Source of the DNA: Patescibacteria group bacterium
Lineage (GTDB): Bacteria > Patescibacteriota > Gracilibacteria > Absconditabacterales > Absconditicoccaceae
Reading direction: 5' to 3'
Assembly: GCA_022705745.1 (NCBI GenBank)
Contig: JAKJDW010000011.1
Location: forward strand, 1 to 33,969
DNA length: 33,969 bases
In this document: positions 9,310-33,969 of the stretch, piece after piece
Layout: the number at the start of each line of letters is the position of its first letter
Position numbering within the stretch: the first letter of the stretch is position 1
The notes under the pieces: model-generated
What the model was told of the DNA's origin: nothing
Databases searched by the model: none
The model's input: the letters and a program-made list of their open reading frames with translations, nothing else
Made by a program: the position numbers and the translations under genes

Positions 9310-10935
9310 ATGAATATATCTATATGATTTTCGTGACCAGCTGGATCTTGAGTAAATACAGCTGGATTATTGCTTTGAGAGCTACTTTCCCAAAAGGGCT
9401 TTAATATTCTTGCTGATAAGGAATATGTTTCAATTATTAAAGGTGGTAACAACTGCTTTTTTTTATATATCACTGATAAAGATACACCTTATATCTCCAA
9501 AACAATAGACTTATTTTTTGCTTTTGATGATTATGCAATTACAAAAAACGAAAAAATCTATGCTCTAAAAAATATTCTAAATATAAAAACTTTCGCAAAA
9601 AAACACAAAAATATTTTTGCCTTTTGAACTTCGTTAAAAGCTTTGTGAATTTCAAAAGAAGAGGGGATTATTCTTTTAGAAAAAACTTTTTCACAAGCGG
9701 TTTTAGATGAAAATAAGGAAGAATTGTTAGCTTGATATGAGTATTTTGATACTGTTCAACTTAATTTCGAAATAGATTTAGATTTTTCTAAAAATATTTG
9801 ACCTCAAAAATTGTTTATGTTTGGAAATGAATTGATTGCAAAATGAGCGATAGATAGTTGATTGGAATTTTATTCTGCATATCCAATGACTCCTGCATCA
9901 AGTATTATTGATATTATCGTTAAATATCCAGAAAAAGTAACATTTTTTCAATGAGAAGATGAAATCGCGGTTGGTATGTCTATGTTGTGAGCAAAGTTTG
10001 CTGGTAAGAGAGCTATGTGCTGAACTTCTGGATGATGATTTGCTTTGATGTCAGAGGGTATTTCATTCTCAAATCAAGCAGAAATATGATGAGTCTATGT
10101 TCTTTCACAAAGAGATGGTCCAAGTACAGGAACTCCAACTTTTACAGCACAAGGAGATTTGTTTTATGCAATGAATGCTTCATTTGGAGATACTCAACCA
10201 ATAGTTTATGCACCATCGAAATTTGAGGAATTATATACAGATATATGAAAAGCGCTAAATTGGTCTGATATTTATCAGCATCCTGTTATATTTTTGTTGG
10301 ATAAACAACTTTCTGAGTCATATAAATCTATTGCTACAGACTTGCAAGCTGAGCCGATAGATCGTGGAATAATCGCAGAATCCAAACAAAACGATGAGTA
10401 TTTGAGATATAAGCTTACTGATACTGGTATTTCTCCTTATGCTGTTCCAGGTCAAGAAAATACAACATTTATTGCAACATCATATGAACATACAGAATCA
10501 TGAGAAACAAATGAAGATCCAGTTATCAAATGACAGCAGATGGAAAAGAGAATGAAAAAATTACAAACATTCGTTCAAAAAGAATTTAATGAATCTTTTT
10601 ATGGATATGAAATAATCAATCCAAATGCAAAAAAGTTTTATGTAACACGAGGTATGAATCGTTATTCAATAGAGTATGCAATTCAAAACAAAGCGGACTG
10701 GTGACTTATTGTCATAAAATCATTCCAGCCATTTGATAAAAGATTGAAAAAATTCTTCCAAGAAAAAAAAGATAATATAGAAAAACTCGTTTTTGTAGAG
10801 ATGAATTATTTGGGACAAATGCAACAAGTTGTGATGCGCGAATGCAATTTACTAGATGATTCTTGGCAGTGAAAGATTTCTCATATAAGAAAGAATTGAC
10901 TTTACCCTTTCTTTTATGAGGAAATAACGGACTAG
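9310..10935 (+). CDS. korA: 2-oxoacid:ferredoxin oxidoreductase, gamma-alpha fused subunit
   Basis: 541 aa. Residues 1-~165 are the gamma domain (GFSGPAGSGVNTAGLLLGELL at the start). Residues ~180-400 are the pyrimidine-binding alpha domain: SAYPMTPASSIIDI, FFQGEDEIAVGMSMLGAKFA, GTSGGGFALMSEGISF and SQRDGPSTGTPTFTAQGDL. The C-terminal part (FYVTRGMNRYSIEYA, VIKSFQPFDKRL) is the transketolase-C-like domain. Gamma fused to alpha is the KorA arrangement of 2-oxoglutarate-type enzymes; the exact substrate (2-oxoglutarate, pyruvate or other 2-oxoacid) cannot be read from sequence. The enzyme oxidatively decarboxylates a 2-oxoacid to acyl-CoA and reduces ferredoxin. The beta subunit is korB at 11911, separated by a repeat-flanked DUF559 gene. 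ATG 9310 is chosen because it begins directly at the glycine-rich loop. Many glycines are TGA. Confidence 0.9.
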
Positions 10936-10976
10936 ATAGATTCAAAATAGAGTTGATTTAACAGAAATTGTTGCCT

Positions 10977-11208
10977 CCCTTTTGTAATAAAGGAATTGTT
11001 CTGAAGAAGGAGGACAATACTTATTGTCTCCCTTTCGTAAAGGGAGTTGCTCTCCCCGATTTATCGGGGTAGTGGGATTTATTTACATCCTCCACCCCGC
11101 TCGCCCGCTTAAACAGCTGGGCAGAATTGCGGGGCTAAAGAAGGAGGACAGTATTTGTTGTCTCCCTTCCGCGAAAGGAATTGTTCTGAAGAAGAACAAT
11201 ATTAGAGA
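10977..11208 (+). repeat. type C palindromic repeat block, left of DUF559 gene
   Basis: Modules in order: TCCCTTTxGTAAAGGGAG hairpin, GTTGCTCTCCCCG..CGGGG, GTGGGATTTATTTACATCC, TCCACCCCGC..GCGGGG and AAAGAAGGAGGACA, partly doubled. The same modules in the same order and orientation recur at 11641-11832, on the other side of the DUF559 gene. An inverted, shorter copy is at about 18185-18290. No gene is seen between korA and the endonuclease. Confidence 0.75.
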
Positions 11209-11260
11209 GATTTGAAACAGAAAAGAAAAAAGATTAGAGAAATTTATTTAAAAATTGAAA

Positions 11261-11683
11261 ATGATACTATATTACAATCCTAAAAATAAAAAATATGCTA
11301 AGCAAAATAGAAAACAATGTTTTATGACAGAAGCAGAAGGAAAAATATGGAATTTAGTTTTAAAAAAAGATCAGACTGGATATAGGTTTTTAAGGCAAAA
11401 GCCTATTGGTAATTATATTTTAGACTTTTATTGTGCAAAACTTAAGTTGTGAATAGAAATAGATGATAAAAGTCATGATCGAAAATGAGAACAAGATGAA
11501 ATTAGAACACAGTATTTGAATAAATTATGAATTAAGATTTTAAGGTATAGAAATGATAATATTTATTACCAATTAGATTCAGTTATTATAGATTTGAATA
11601 CAAGATTAAAAGAAAGAGAAAATGAGCTTTTGTTAACTAATTGTCTTCCTTCTAACGAGGGGAACTGTTCTGAAGAAGGATAA
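11261..11683 (+). CDS. DUF559 endonuclease-domain protein (Vsr-like PD-(D/E)XK fold)
   Basis: 140 aa. Motifs of the DUF559 family: TEAEGKIWNLV (23-33), GYRFLRQKPIGNYILDFYC (40-58) with Asp55, and LGIEIDDKSH (63-72) with the Glu66-Ile-Asp68 active-site pair; then a helical region with RTQYLNKLGIKILRYRN. The fold is that of very-short-patch-repair-like nucleases; no activity has been firmly assigned to most members. It sits between two direct copies of a palindromic repeat block, splitting korA from korB, and its last ~14 codons run into the right-hand repeat. It has three TGA glycine codons, so it is adapted to this genetic code. ATG 11261 is preferred to a TTG two codons earlier. The gene looks like cargo, or the engine, of a repeat-flanked mobile unit. 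Confidence 0.88.
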
Positions 11684-11832
11684 CACTAATTGTCTCCCTT
11701 TCGTAAAGGGAGTTGTTCTCCCCGTCCCGCCCCGCAATACTGCGGGGCTACGGTGCGGGGTAGAGGGATTTGTTTACATCCTCCACCCCCGCAGAATTGC
11801 GGGGTCCCCCTCCTTCTAAAGAAGGAGGACAG
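11641..11832 (+). repeat. type C palindromic repeat block, right of DUF559 gene
   Basis: Direct repeat of the 10977-11208 block: the segment TTGTCTCCCTTTCGTAAAGG is identical in both, followed by a CCCCGC..GCGGGG hairpin, GAGGGATTTGTTTACATCC, CCACCCCCGC and TAAAGAAGGAGGACAGAATT. It begins inside the 3' end of the DUF559 gene. Confidence 0.75.
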
Positions 11833-11910
11833 AATTGGATTGTTTATTCTATATCTTAAAGAGAGAGAACAAAAGATGAAAAAAATTTTATCATATATAA
11901 ATATAATAAA

Positions 11911-12513
11911 ATGAGAACAGGACTTATAAAATTCCAACGATGTCCATGATGTGGTAATTTCATTATCCATCTTGCGATCAAACAAGCTTTAGCGGAATTA
12001 AAAATACCAAAACACAAAACTGTAGTAGTTACATGAATTTGATGTAGTGGGAAAATGAGTCAGTATGTGGATTGATATTGAGCGGAAACTCTTCACGGAA
12101 GAGGGATTCCTTTTGCTACTGGAGTCAAGCTAGCCAACCCTGATTTGACTGTCATTTCAGTTTCATGAGATTGAGATACTTATTGAATTGGACTTGGGCA
12201 TCTGCTTCATTCTGCTAGAAAGGATATCAATATTGTGCATATAGTTGCTGATAATGAAAATTATGCTTTGACTACAGGTCAAGCTTCTCCGACAACACCA
12301 AAAAATATAAAAACAAAATCTACTCCAGATTGAAATACTATATCTCCATTTGATCCATTGAAATTAACAGAGTCTGCCGGTTGTAAATTAAATATTTCTG
12401 CTAATGATAGAGATTTGCCTTGATTGAAAAAAGCGATAATGGACTGAATCCAACATAAAGGTTTTGCGCATATAAATGTTAAACAAACTTGTCCAAGTTT
12501 CAAAAAATGGTAG
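11911..12513 (+). CDS. korB: 2-oxoacid:ferredoxin oxidoreductase beta subunit (short)
   Basis: 200 aa. CPGCGNF (11-17), Cys45 in IGCSGK and Cys194 in KQTCPSF provide the four Cys of the expected 4Fe-4S cluster. GDGDTYGIGLGH (86-97) followed by Asn at ~115 and 117 is the thiamine diphosphate/Mg motif. It pairs with KorA at 9310. The protein stops at a TAG six residues after Cys194, whereas beta subunits are usually about 80 residues longer. Beyond the TAG the frame stays open for 32 codons and includes NEYHLDDERF, reminiscent of the usual C-terminal tail. The catalytic part is complete, so the protein may still function. Confidence 0.87.
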
Positions 12514-12596: not shown

Positions 12597-13475
12597 ATGA
12601 ACAACAAATTAAGACAAGGACTTATAATTTCTACAATAGTTACACTAGGTCTACTTGGTCAGGTCAAGGAAGCAATAGCTCAGACATTGAACGATAAGAA
12701 TATTGATAAAACAGAAGAATTGGCGAGGGTAACTGATAATACAGCTAGTGCAATTAGTGCAAATTTTGATTTAGATAGAAGTTCACCAGATGTATCAGCT
12801 GTAAAACAGTTTTTTATGGAATGAGATATTTTAACAAATGATGAAAAAAAAGATTTTATCAAATTACGAGATAAAATATCCAAAAATGATGCACGAATAT
12901 TTTATGAAAGACAAATGCAGAGAGCATTAAATTGAACATATACAAATGAAGAAGCGAAAATGTTTATTGGTGCTTTAATGGACCAAGCACAAGAAACAGC
13001 ACGGTGAAAAACAGAACATGAAAAAGTTAACCAAAAAAAAATATATCAATATATATTTTCTCAAATGTTAAGACAAATAACATCAGAAATTAACTTAGCA
13101 CAATCAGAAGCAAGGTTAAAACAATCAATAAAAGAAGGGGAACAATTAAAAGCTGAAGGGGAACAATTAAAAGCTGAAGGGGAACAATTAAAAGCTGAAG
13201 GGGAACAATTAAAAGCTGAGATAATTGAATTGAAGGCTGAAGGAGAAAAATTGAAGGCTGAAGGAGAAAAATTGAAGGCTGAAGGAGAAAAATTGAAACA
13301 AGATGAAGAAGAACTGAGAGGATTAAAGCGGACTTTAATGGATGTGGAAGAGGTTTTTAAAAATTATCTAAAGATAGAAGGAGAAAAATTGGAACAAGAT
13401 AAAGAAAAATTAGACGAAAAAATTGAATCTTTAAACAAGGTAGAAAAAACTTTTGAAAATCAAAAGAAAGAATAA
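12597..13475 (+). CDS. secreted coiled-coil repeat protein, copy 1
   Basis: 292 aa. The N-terminus is a signal peptide: MNNKLRQ, a hydrophobic stretch GLIISTIVTLGLLG, and a likely cut after AIA (residue 28). A globular region follows (~30-155). Then, from about residue 175, come seven-residue repeats: GEQLKAE four times and GEKLKAE three times, followed by charged coiled coil to the end. The protein should be exported and elongated. No known family is recognised. The first 228 nt differ at only three positions from the next gene, after which the two diverge abruptly. In the repeats Gly is GGG or GGA, whereas the matching residue in copy 2 is TGA. Confidence 0.85.
13131..13300 (+). repeat. 21-bp coding tandem repeats (GEQLKAE)
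   Basis: Heptad-encoding units of the form GAAGGGGAACAATTAAAAGC, then a GAAGGAGAAAAATTGAAGGC variant, inside the 12597 gene. Confidence 0.9.
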
Positions 13476-13505
13476 ACTAAAAAATTTTAATTCTTCAAAA
13501 AAAGA

Positions 13506-14183
13506 ATGAACAACAAACTAAGACAAGGACTTATAATTTCTACAATAGTTACACTAGGTCTACTTGGTCAGGTCAAGGAAGCAATAGCTCAGACATTGAA
13601 CGATAAGAATATTGATAAAACAGAAGAATTGGCGAGGGTAACTGATAATACAGCTAGTGCAATTAGTGCAAATTTTGATTTAGATAGAAGTTCACCAGAT
13701 GTATCGGCTGTAAAACAGTTTTTTATGGGATGAGATATTCTGAATGATGAAGAGAAAAAAGATTTTGAGATGTTACGAAATAGTGTTATACAAAGCGATG
13801 TTCGACCTATTTATGAAAGACAAATATTAAAGTTTTTTAATCCAGTTTTTACGGAAGAAGAGAAAAAAATGTTTATTATATTATTGCTTGATCCCAACCA
13901 AAATACACAATTATGACAAAAAGAATTTTCCAAGCTCAACAATAAGAAATCTTATAAAAGTATACATACACAATCCATAAGGAGTGTAAACACATCTATA
14001 GAATTAGCACAATCAACAGAGAAATTAGAACAATTGAAAAAAGAATGAGAACAATTGAAAAAAGAATGAGAACAATTGAAAAAAGAATGAGAACAATTGA
14101 AAAAAGAATGAGAACAATTGAAGTCATTAAAGCAAACTTTAGAAAATATGAAAAAAGTTTTTGAAGAAAATCAAGAAAAATAA
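13506..14183 (+). CDS. secreted coiled-coil repeat protein, copy 2
   Basis: 225 aa, tandem paralogue of the 12597 gene, with the same signal peptide and the same first ~76 residues. The middle is related but diverged (copy 1 FYERQMQRALNGTYTNEEAKMF; copy 2 YERQILKFFNPVFTEEEKKM). The C-terminus has GEQLKKE heptads in which each Gly is encoded by TGA. Alignment of these TGA codons with GGG/GGA in copy 1 is direct internal evidence that TGA means glycine here. It is separated from copy 1 by 30 bp and ends just before a strong hairpin terminator. Function unknown; surface or envelope location is inferred. Confidence 0.85.
14029..14120 (+). repeat. 21-bp coding tandem repeats with TGA codons (GEQLKKE)
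   Basis: Units of AAAAAAGAATGAGAACAATT(G) repeated four times or more inside the 13506 gene, each carrying an in-frame TGA. Confidence 0.9.
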
Positions 14184-14281: not shown

Positions 14282-16468
14282 ATGTTTCAAATGATAGAGT
14301 TTGATAATGATAGATATGAAAAATCTTGTCTAGAAAAATCTAATGAGATAGAAGGGCATAATAATGTAGATATGATCGATGCTACAGAGGTTTCTGATAT
14401 TCGACAAGAAATTTGGAAAGTTGTAGATAAAAAACAGTTCAATAGCATGATAGATGACTTATCTAAAGAAACTAGATTTAAAATTTTTTCAAGGGATAAT
14501 GTGAATGAAATATGAATGGAGATTTTGAAACAATTATGGAAAGAGGAAAATAATGTTTTTAGTGAACAATTTATATATTATTATATAGAAAATGATATAG
14601 CCACATACTTGGAAAATATAAAAAATTCAATAACAAATGATAACAGTCAAGGACAAGAAGAAGCTAATCAAGGACAAGAAGAAGCTAATCAAGGACAAGA
14701 AGAAGCTAATCAAGGACAAGAAGAAGCTAATCAAGGACAAGAAGATAGCAATGAAGAAAACTTAAGAGAAATTAAAAATTTGTTTGAATGACTTGAAAAA
14801 TTATATAATTGATTATCTCCAGACTTAAAGTGAAGAGCAAAGCTAGATGCTGAGTTAAAAAACAAACTAGATGGTAAAGTAGATGCCGAACAATTTTCAC
14901 AATATTTATTTGCATTCAATAAGATCCAAGAGAAGCAAACTAGGTGAGAAGAATTGAATGAAAGTGAAAAATGATTTTTAGAATGATTTAAGGGTTTGAC
15001 AGTTAGTTTAGGCATAGAAATCGCGATTGCTATTCCCATAAATTCAGAAAGACCTAAAACTGTTGAAAAAAAATTGGTAGTTCGTCCAACATCTTTGGAA
15101 AATATTGCTAATTCTGATGCTATTTTAGAGAATAAAAGAACAAAAGGGTTTGTAGCTAAAAGATTAGAAAACTCAAGTAGTGGAAAAGTCAGTCTAAGTT
15201 TGGACAATGAAAAAGATTTATCAAGGTTACCTAAGTATGCAGTTAAAAAATTCAAAGAAGTTTTTCTTAGAAATAAAGATCTTTTTGATAAATATAAAGA
15301 TTTTATTAATGATGATTGAACACTAAAAAATTCAGATGATACTCTTCTTACTGCAATTAAAGAATATATTGCACAATATGAAGAAGAAAAGAAAAAAGAT
15401 ATATTAAGAAAAATCCATGAAAGGGCGATGATAGGTTGTTTTAGGGGATTGACGACATATTTTGATATCAATAGTATCAATCAAGAAAATTTCATAAAGG
15501 ATATAAAATTAAATATAAACGATGATATTACTGTTGATGAAAAGAATAAATTGTATATTAGATGAAGCATTAAATGAAAAAATATATGAATTTATTATAA
15601 TATGGATGATTGAACAGTAGAGATGGACGATTTTCTAGCGGAAGATGGAGAATGAAATTTATTTGTTTGAGCAAATCATTGAAAAAGAGAAAAATTAGCT
15701 TTTACACTACCGACATACGATAGTTTAGTTGATAAGTGATGACAAATAGATTTTTCAGGAATATTGAAAAAGAATGATAGAGAAAAAGATATTGAAGAAC
15801 AGATTGATAAATCTCTTGATAGAACAATGGATAGTAGTTTCAAAAATGAGAATATAAATAAATTTATTGTCTGAAAACATATGGAGGAGTATGTAGCAGA
15901 ACAAGAAATATTAGATCATATATTCCAAAACCGACTTACTTGAGCGAATTACGATCCTAATTTAGATTTTAGGCAAAGAGATATAAAAATTGAGAAATCT
16001 AATAATCCTAATCAACATAAACTTTTATCTATAATTAACAATACTATAGAAGCTCAAAAAACTCCGAACGGTTTACAAAGATTTAGACAAGCTATAGATG
16101 AGTTTAGTAATTTAGTGGAAAAAGCTAAAGATCCTATGAAAAGTAATAGGACTGATTGTCCAGTTTTCAATAGGTTATTTAATTTTAGGAAGATGAACAA
16201 GTGAAAAAGCAGGTTTGAAAATAATAGAAAAACAAATTATCAAACTTACTTTGAATTTATGTCTATATGATGAGATAGTCACCTAAGAATTGATTTAAAT
16301 TTACTTGAAAAAGCTAATAAAGAATTAACGAAAAAGGGAGGCTCTCTTAAGAATATAAATAATCCAATTATTCAAGAAAAAATTTCAGAGTATGTTGAGC
16401 CAACAGCTGATGCCTATCTTGAATGACAATTAGAAGCGTGGGATTTAGGAGAACAGAATGTTGTATAG
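14282..16468 (+). CDS. large uncharacterised protein with QGQEEAN repeats
   Basis: 728 aa, no family recognised. Residues 1-120 are acidic and helical. About 123-157 hold five copies of QGQEEAN, the last degenerate, encoded by 21-bp tandem repeats. Then a long charged, Asn/Lys/Asp-rich region follows without signal peptide; the weakly hydrophobic stretch around residue 240 (LTVSLGIEIAIAIPI) is too short to be a clear membrane segment. Many TGA codons occur throughout. It stands alone between its own promoter and its own terminator, directly after the two secreted coiled-coil genes. Lineage-specific protein; no function can be proposed. Confidence 0.8.
14648..14752 (+). repeat. 21-bp tandem repeat (QGQEEAN)
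   Basis: Four near-perfect copies of CAAGGACAAGAAGAAGCTAA(T) and a fifth altered copy, in frame inside the 14282 gene. Copy number changes would alter protein length without shifting frame. Confidence 0.92.
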
Positions 16469-17859: not shown

Positions 17860-18461
17860 GAAATAAGCTCGCCCCAGCTCCACCACGTAGTAACTACGTA
17901 GTTTAGCGGGGTTAACTTTGTTCACGATAAAATGATGAATGCTCACGGTGTTCGCGATAAAATGTTAAAATGATAAAATGATAAATTGATAAAAGAAAAA
18001 ATTCCTCCCTAGGGGGAGGATGTTCTCCCCGCAGTACTGCGGGGTAGGTGGGGGTTTTTCTTTCCAGTAATTCCTGACAACCCCAACCCCCAACTATGAT
18101 AGAACAACTTCCCCCGAGGGAAGGATTCCTTGTTTTCGTGTGCTCACTTCGTTCGCTTAGTCGAAATGACATGCTGTTCATAAATCCCTCTACCCCGCAC
18201 CCTTGGTCCTACGGGGTCGCGCCTGCAAAGGTGGAGAGAATCTTAAATCCTACTACACTAGAGCAACTCCCTTTGAAAAAGGGAGACAGTGTTTTTGTTT
18301 CTACTACTTATGTCTTGCCCGCCTAGCGGGGTGAATGATGAAATGATGAAACGATGTAGGGGCGCTTATCAACCGCCCGTTGTTATAGCAAAAGAACATT
18401 TTCATTATAATAACGGGAGTAATCATTTCTATATTCTGATTTTATAAATTTTTGAATTTTA
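17860..18461. repeat. repeat cluster between murA and UPF0489 gene
   Basis: No gene. It contains a GTAACTACGTAG palindrome, short ATAAAATGAT-type tandem repeats (about 17928-17995), an inverted type A element (18001-18129), an inverted partial type C element (about 18185-18290) and a hairpin CCCGTTGTTAT/ATAATAACGGG (18376-18417) just before the next gene. The segment GTGCTCACTTCGTTCGCTTA within it is GC-rich and unlike the genes. Confidence 0.7.
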
Positions 18462-22642: not shown

Positions 22643-23000
22643 TAATTAATCTACAAGACTTTATACAAATTTTTACCCATATATCAACACAAAAATACTT
22701 GAAAAAATATAAAAATTAGCTATTGTAAAGTTGAAAACTTTAAGAATGAAAAAATTCTTCCCTTGGGGGAAGCTGTTCTAGTGCTGCGCCCCGCCCCGTA
22801 GGACTACGGGGCGGGGTAGTTGGGGGTAAAACCCCCACCTAGTCCCTCATAAATTCGGGACACCACATCCTCCCCCGAGGGAGGGATTCTAATTGAAATC
22901 CTTACGAAACCCCGTTCTACTCGTCTTGTAAGCTTTGTAGGACTACGGGGCGGGTGGTAGGGAATACAAACTTTACACACTTTACACACATATTCCTACA
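22643..23000. repeat. intergenic region with type A repeat
   Basis: No gene. A type A palindromic element fills 22751-22890, with an added CCCCGCCCCG..CGGGGCGGGG hairpin; GTTGGGGGTAAAACCCCCAC, CTAGTCCCTCATAAATTCGG and the terminal hairpins match the copy at 91-192. A further partial CGGGGCGGG unit lies at 22947-22955. Confidence 0.7.
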
Positions 23001-31607: not shown

Positions 31608-31998
31608 TTCCAAAAACATTAGAATATAAAAATAAATTCAAATTTATTTATTACTACTCAATAATTATACTTTTCATCACATTAATCAATAGTAATTGAT
31701 GATAAATTTACAAATTTTACGGATAATATTTTTATTTATCTTGAATAGATCCTTAAATTCAATATTGTATTTGCAAGCGTTACAAGTTAAAAGTTACAAG
31801 TTGATAGTAGTCCCCCTTAACAAGGGGGATTAAGGGGGATTTTAGACTCATGAATGGATTCTAACTCCCTTAACTCACTCATTTACGGAGAACTCTGCAA
31901 ACAAGGGGGATTAAATAGAAACCTTCATTTATAAAAAAATCCCCCCTTTCCCCCCTTATTAAGGGGGGCTATAAGTTTACAAACCTTACCACTTCCCA
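31608..31998. repeat. repeat-filled region between DUF3160 gene and ruvC
   Basis: A -10-like TATAAT on the minus strand (31669-31664) probably belongs to the DUF3160 promoter. AGTTAAAAGTTACAAGTTGA-type repeats (31778-31806) adjoin an inverted type B palindromic element (31811-31970). TTGAATAGATCC at 31741-31752 duplicates the start of ruvC (32007-32018). No gene. Confidence 0.6.
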
Positions 31999-33739: not shown

Positions 33740-33969
33740 CTTTGAATATAATTTAGATAATAAATAGTTTGTAAAGTTACAAGTTATAAAGTTACAAGTT
33801 ACACCCCCCCTTAATAAGGGGGGTAGGGGGGATTTTGTGATAAATGAGAGTTTTTATTTAATCCCCCTTAATCCCCCTTGTTAAGGGGGACTTGTACAAG
33901 TTACTTAATTCGGTAACAAATTTTTTGTAAAATTAAAAGGAGATTGTCATTCTAAGGATCAATGTGCTC
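33740..33969. repeat. repeat region at window end
   Basis: AAGTTACAAGTTATAAAGTTACAAG-like short repeats (33770-33803), then a type B element (33804-33892) sharing TTTGTGATAAATGA and the CCCCCTTAATCCCCCTT tail with the copy at 226-309. No gene visible after it. Confidence 0.65.

Follow-up and report, generated by a model that had tools for sequence, protein, structure and literature searches.

The korA-korB locus and its palindromic modules

The window, the whole 33,969-nucleotide stretch of DNA analyzed here, is one entire contig of a 1.06-Mb genome of the Gracilibacteria type that is 94% complete and reads UGA as glycine (code 25). On the forward strand, a korA-like gene for a 2-oxoacid:ferredoxin oxidoreductase subunit (9310–10935; Pfam POR_N 1e-38 and POR 9e-11, code 25) precedes a korB-like gene for a TPP enzyme subunit (11911–12513; Pfam TPP_enzyme_C 1e-30). 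As the original prediction had stated, the end of korA at 10935 and the start of korB at 11911 leave 975 bp between them, and this interval holds a DUF559 gene on the same strand (11261–11683, 140 amino acids; Pfam E = 2e-27, code 25) for a Vsr/EDxHD-like nuclease, recognized by alignment, an AF2 model and PDB entries 3hrl and 3r3p. An Rfam scan of the window gave no match, and PADLOC returned nothing beyond weak matches to methyl-directed restriction enzymes.

To compare occupied with empty sites, korB and its upstream gene were examined across relatives. The view that korA and korB are normally adjacent was borne out: 15 relatives carry the two genes on a single stretch, their gaps measure −8 to 121 bp apart from one of 455 bp, and DUF559 is absent from all of them. 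The 455-bp gap, in G014, holds a different insert (L133), an ORF recognized by eye as resembling S23/four-helix intervening-sequence proteins and flanked by ATGATGAATGATGAATG-type repeats, perhaps a second gene-repeat partnership at the same hot spot. Palindromes of other families (GTCATTGCGAGC-like) occupy the gaps of G020, G001 and G016. Across the korA-korB gaps and a loop of mnmA, unrelated palindromic elements (GTCATTGCGAGC, GTCATTCTGAGC and GTCATTCCGGC types), some of them in frame, were seen at L131, L132, L134, L135, L284 and L302, so that several repeat families use these same sites. The korA-korB gap is thus itself an insertion hot spot.

The DUF559 gene had been described as bounded by two same-orientation copies of one block. 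A left block (10968–11213) and a right block (11641–11832) do match directly (67 bp at 88%, 34 bp at 94%, plus shorter pieces), but each is a mosaic of modules. On the left, sequence inspection and a terminus scan showed a short degenerate solo module with no assigned strand (10968–11017; TTGCCTCCC...GGAGGACAA), a complete, gene-less, MITE-like solo element of 128 bp on the plus strand (11024–11151; TTGTCTCCC...GGGATTTATTTACATCC...GGAGGACAG) with ends as in the G014 unit described below, and the degenerate left end of the DUF559 unit (11158–11213, plus strand; TTGTCTCCCTTCCGCGAAAGG...AGAGAGATTT), the last also supported by comparison with the G014 unit. On the right, a degenerate plus-strand module (11641–11685; sequence and terminus scan) begins before the DUF559 stop codon at 11681–11683, confirming that the right block starts within the 3′ end of the gene. 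It is followed by a complete 143-bp solo element (11690–11832, plus strand; G014 unit comparison and terminus scan) with the same ends (TTGTCTCCC...GGAGGACAG) as 11024–11151, which is the probable source of the unit's outer right end. The two complete elements have in common the ends TTGTCTCCCTTTCGTAAAGGGAG...GGGATTT-n-TTTACATCC...GAAGGAGGACAG and fold with RNA parameters at −52 kcal/mol (11024–11151) and −75 kcal/mol (11690–11832). The direct blocks are real, but they are neighboring solo copies, and the unit's own ends are inverted.

Elsewhere in the window, the nuclease-free copy that had been noted near 18185–18290 exists but is degenerate and in opposite orientation (18175–18305, minus strand; two inverted matches). 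Simple-type triplex-motif pairs with no gene and no assigned strand lie at 226–307 (hairpin outwards; motif scan) and at 31810–31968 and 33804–33890 (motif scan and repeat matches). The strict motif scan made no call within 10936–11910 itself; the copies there have the hairpin arms and the GGGATTT third arm, with a small extra hairpin between them. Solo copies proved to be numerous genome-wide: the 975-bp insert used as query gave 53 matches, the locus itself included, and the strict motif gave 94, a count inflated by nested matches, versus 0 for a reversed control pattern. The window also contains two tandem genes (12597–14183), 94% identical over their first 287 nt, with differing, coiled-coil-looking in-frame arrays of 21-bp repeats (13133–13318 and 14000–14143), a third 21-bp array at 14647–14751, and a 47-nt exact repeat with hairpin potential (GTAGTTGGGGGTAAAACCCCCACCTAGTCCCTCATAAATTCGGGACA) at 121–167 and 22816–22862.

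A discrete unit, its gene-less copies and its insertion sites

The boundaries of the unit were given by G014, in which an alignment of two DUF559 copies at unrelated places runs for ∼520 bp at 94% identity, starting at TTGTCTCCCTTTGTAAAGGGAG and finishing at CCTCCTTTACAAAGGAGGACAA. The alignment ends exactly at the palindromic TTGTC...GACAA ends and the flanks are unrelated; these copies define a discrete unit bounded by palindromes. No target-site duplication was evident by eye at these two sites. In the tree, their nearest relative is the window korA-korB copy (71% protein identity). Similarly, the cyanobacterial DUF559 pairs L216/L217 (one genome) and L171/L176 (across genera) have in common nothing beyond the gene, the palindromic ends and a short surrounding stretch. 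Together with the empty korA-korB sites and the co-occurrence of gene and repeat, the G014 unit supports the predicted repeat-endonuclease mobile unit.

Solo units without the gene recur dozens of times, and gene-bearing and gene-less copies have the same inverted ends, as an IS and its MITEs do. Solo elements consist of the ends of the unit joined with the gene omitted. Within the unit the gene is central, between GGGATTT and AAATCC, a position that fits either the gene's insertion into an unbroken palindrome or its deletion from one; solo elements may derive from the unit or be ancestral to it.

Mobility extends further than had been proposed, since units of this kind enter genes in frame as well. 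In the window genome, DUF559 lies in frame within tgt and, at a contig end, within sufB; in relatives it is found in frame within mnmA (four genera), elp3 (twice, at different sites), leuS, fmt, prmC and ribE, host genes that were named from conserved sequence as read rather than by profile. Gene-less units likewise occur in frame inside genes of relatives. Comparing one genome per species, we found that the mnmA loop after TGHYAR carries DUF559 in G016, is empty in G434 and G435 of the same genus, has a copy that shares this design but lacks the gene in G004, G426 and G430, and carries other palindromes in G428 and G431. This loop is occupied in four genera, partly by distant DUF559 copies, and many other sites are occupied too. 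The tgt gene carries DUF559 in the window genome and is empty in same-genus G001, and in G412 and G416 it apparently contains palindrome-coded peptides. Where tgt or mnmA is interrupted, the search for that gene returned just one match in the genome, indicating that the interrupted enzymes are presumably functional. Unit copies thus occur at different sites, sister species lack them at the corresponding positions, and many gene-less copies exist alongside them.

The repeat family and its association with DUF559

DUF559 flanks often carry a pyrimidine arm, a short spacer and a hairpin with an arm repeating the first (140 loci). The typical form is GATCCCCCC-TAA-CCCCCCTTnnnnAAGGGGGG in Cyanobacteria and ACCTCTCCC-TAA-CCCTCTCCnnnGGAGAGGG in non-cyanobacterial loci. 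The hairpin faces outward at both flanks of 46 loci; it faces inward at 5, and 27 loci lack such a motif at the threshold used. A hairpin and third arm with a spacer of ∼3 nt (TTA/CCG) were seen at most DUF559 loci across phyla, and the end types vary from a simple hairpin-TTA-arm in Cyanobacteria to the form with an extra small hairpin in the window unit. Motif-flanked DUF559 genes were found in Patescibacteria, Cyanobacteria, Deinococcus, Proteobacteria (E. coli K-12 ycjD) and others. At eight further loci (Neisseria, Deinococcus, Azospirillum, Sphingomonas, Sinorhizobium, Photobacterium, Pseudanabaena and Synechocystis), a related palindrome was seen by eye on at least one side in every case, less typical in Sinorhizobium. 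In one Synechocystis sp. B12 plasmid (L346), a DUF559 gene with inverted motif ends adjoins or sits within a BREX pglX frame.

This design is that of the BoxC, PIT or G+C-rich intrastrand triplex motif. These repeats were already recognized in the 1990s and are present in over 260 genomes; E. coli K-12 has 23 copies and Microcystis 443. By their loop they are divided into type A (TTA) and type B (CCG) (PMC4666352). Triplex formation in vitro was shown for TM_ECO; the motifs were linked to local instability without any enzyme, and Holder et al. (2015) never found a mobility gene near them (PMC4666352). In the open-access literature, we found no paper linking DUF559 with palindromic repeats. One correction to the original prediction is that the repeat design was known before. 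In E. coli K-12, a type A motif (TCCCCTCGCCCCTCTGGGGAGAGGGTTAGGGTGAGGGGA) lies ∼170 bp beyond ycjD, and the YcjD product ends ...RRSPSP because the gene runs into such a palindrome; the E. coli BoxC repeats apparently belong to the same nuclease-repeat pairing.

The association was evident both beside the gene and genome-wide. Hairpin scores of at least 12 were reached by 52% of DUF559 flanks compared with 5% of in-locus windows (p = 6e-41). Flank scores were above those of random windows (p = 6e-41 and 5e-40) and of similar-size gene flanks (p = 2e-15 and 5e-17; both-sided odds ratios 9 and 22). Both flanks scored at least 10 for 30/60 DUF559 genes versus 32/309 similar-size genes (p = 2e-11) and, in other phyla, for 44/74 versus 10/160 (p = 2e-18). 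These flank tests use loci that also suggested the idea, whereas the genome counts depend on those loci via the choice of pattern alone, and the whole-genome count is the strong test.

A first hairpin-plus-arm detector with no pyrimidine rule did not separate genomes with DUF559 from those without (p = 0.12). The pyrimidine rule, taken from the loci, was then added; separation was obtained and was confirmed by an independent whole-genome pattern count. The strict motif has a density of 172 per 100 kb close to DUF559 (up to 300 bp away), compared with 3.6 in the rest of those genomes, 0.15 in genomes lacking DUF559 and 0 in shuffled sequence. Density is thus 48-fold higher beside the gene than elsewhere in the same genomes and, away from the gene, 24-fold higher than in DUF559-less genomes; the regional density test reached just p of about 0.01–0.02 because events are few. 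Motif counts are upper bounds, since matches nest, and the gene's own flanks add one or a few per genome.

Among 380 Patescibacteria, the motif was present in 53/73 genomes with DUF559 versus 24/307 without (odds ratio 31, p = 2e-29), and at least 10 matches were found in 22/73 versus 4/307. Stratification by family, which partly controls for species relatedness, left an odds ratio of 11 (p = 5e-5). Of 116 Cyanobacteria, 50/60 with DUF559 and 20/56 without had the motif (odds ratio 9, p = 1e-7); the association holds in small and large genomes separately at low copy thresholds, and in small genomes it fails at ten or more matches. Four cyanobacterial genomes (G494, G548, G545 and G524) have 104–753 motif matches, 753 in G494 and 208 in G548, and no strong DUF559 match. 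Here the gene may have been lost, missed by assembly or unneeded, and pseudogenes or another mobilizer are conceivable.

The nuclease, its possible role and related systems

The conserved residues of DUF559 in the alignment are E26, Q46, D55, E66, D68, H72, D79 and R82. Among 45 sequences D55, H72 and D79 are invariant and E26 is nearly so, which fits the EDxHD family name. An AlphaFold2 model built from these sequences (pLDDT 91) best matched 3hrl, a Neisseria endonuclease-like protein (TM(target) 0.89), among solved structures, followed by 3r3p, the catalytic domain of homing endonuclease I-Bth0305I (0.69–0.70), which a sequence profile also recovers (E = 6e-5); Vsr was a weaker structural match than either. 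DUF559 is accordingly predicted to be a nuclease with the EDxHD homing endonuclease fold, of the PD-(D/E)XK/Vsr type. A cyanobacterial DUF559 gene has already been placed under EDxHD (PMC9403480). When Legionella was evolved experimentally, mutation and recombination had hot spots in three repeated segments containing a transposase and DUF559 (PMC12308824).

In a quick tree with many weak branches, the four DUF559 copies of the window genome are placed at four separate points, an elp3 copy of another genus is the sister of its sufB copy with high support, and cyanobacterial and WOR-3 copies nest among Gracilibacteria. The copies follow neither species nor host gene, which suggests that they moved horizontally. 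A phage origin was considered and is unsupported, just three weak phage relatives having been found.

With a probability of about two in three, the korA-korB insert is a selfish nuclease-repeat element. Its discrete unit and ends, mobility over evolutionary time, fold and co-occurrence with the repeat are established; DUF559 itself would catalyze the spread, although it could be a passenger. In the unit, DUF559 is surrounded by two end structures in inverted orientation, both made of a G+C-rich hairpin with a third pyrimidine/purine arm. In this model, DUF559 may recognize and cut either an empty target or the end structure, the latter probably while it is extruded or single-stranded at a replication fork. 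Repair from a copy would then spread the unit. Solo copies would be internal-deletion derivatives mobilized in trans, like MITEs by an IS. Insertions are tolerated between genes and, since translation can pass through the palindromes without meeting a stop, also as in-frame additions to loops of conserved enzymes.

Unrelated machinery, such as replication slippage or another transposase, might instead move the repeats with DUF559 as cargo. The ends look structure-prone and copyable by replication, some genomes have hundreds of motif matches without a strong DUF559 match, and enzyme-free instability of the motifs has been reported (PMC4666352). We consider this unlikely: the recurring gene between the ends is DUF559 in many phyla, its presence predicts motif number even within families, and no Y1 transposase was found in the window genome.

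Somewhat less likely still is strict homing, in which DUF559 cuts existing solo repeats and the gene alone is copied in, the repeats spreading otherwise. The I-Bth0305I fold, the resemblance of the unit to a solo element with the gene at its center (GGGATTT | AAATCC) and the L100 gene, which splits an otherwise continuous palindrome, would suit it, but it leaves unexplained both the dependence of motif numbers on DUF559 and the complete ends common to the two G014 copies at 94% identity.

That DUF559 is a host repair or anti-instability nuclease, processing triplex or hairpin ends and needed by motif-full genomes, is very improbable. It would agree with the Vsr-like fold and with Caulobacter VsrA, a DUF559 Vsr-like enzyme interpreted as a mismatch-repair enzyme and able to cause double-strand breaks (PMC12907096). 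However, the gene travels together with its repeats, the pair enters conserved genes in frame, and sister species differ in whether they carry it; such behavior is selfish, not housekeeping. An ordinary spacer of chance neighbors with hairpins as terminators, common as hairpins are near gene ends, was rejected by the gene-flank controls with similar-size genes, the 46:5 orientation bias, the unit boundaries and the in-frame intragenic copies.

The selfish element has a wider form, which we advance tentatively and short of favoring it: DUF559 may be the transposition enzyme of a new mobile-element class with triplex-forming inverted ends, of which the BoxC/PIT/triplex-motif repeats of E. coli, Cyanobacteria, Neisseria and Patescibacteria would be non-autonomous derivatives. 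A small, widespread nuclease family of unknown function at the same loci in many phyla is a direct candidate for the mobilizer, and the pairing points to a missing mover for a family of orphan repeats that is among the most widespread in bacteria. If true, this class places a nuclease domain in frame in tRNA-modifying and translation enzymes, affecting annotation and protein evolution in Patescibacteria.

Such an element would work like a REP/RAYT pair or a homing endonuclease, without the RAYT enzyme, intron or intein. Like REP/REPIN sequences with RAYT (TnpA-REP), it combines short palindromes in inverted pairs and many gene-less copies with a single dedicated, palindrome-flanked gene present in one to few copies per genome. 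RAYT, however, is an HUH/Y1 enzyme, whereas DUF559 has a PD-(D/E)XK/Vsr-type fold; the Y1 transposase domain PF01797 was not found in the 94%-complete window genome, and no GTAG tag was seen. EDxHD homing endonucleases (I-Bth0305I, PDB 3r3p) have the same fold, conserved acidic and histidine residues, and presence or absence at conserved sites, but DUF559 lies outside any group I intron or intein and its unit is bounded by palindromic repeats, which are dispersed in gene-less form too. In IS/MITE pairs, too, gene-less derivatives carry the inverted ends of the autonomous unit, but the DUF559 unit has no known transposase, and no target-site duplication was evident by eye at its two G014 sites. 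Rickettsia palindromic elements are palindromes in frame within conserved genes; they carry no gene and are likened here by description. A further likeness is to BoxC/PIT/TM_ECO, which are dispersed, sometimes in inverted pairs, have a hairpin and third strand separated by TTA or CCG, and are abundant in E. coli, Cyanobacteria and Neisseria. Those repeats were described without a nearby mobility gene, whereas here, with an additional small hairpin in each end of the window copies, the motif ends a unit with a dedicated nuclease gene.
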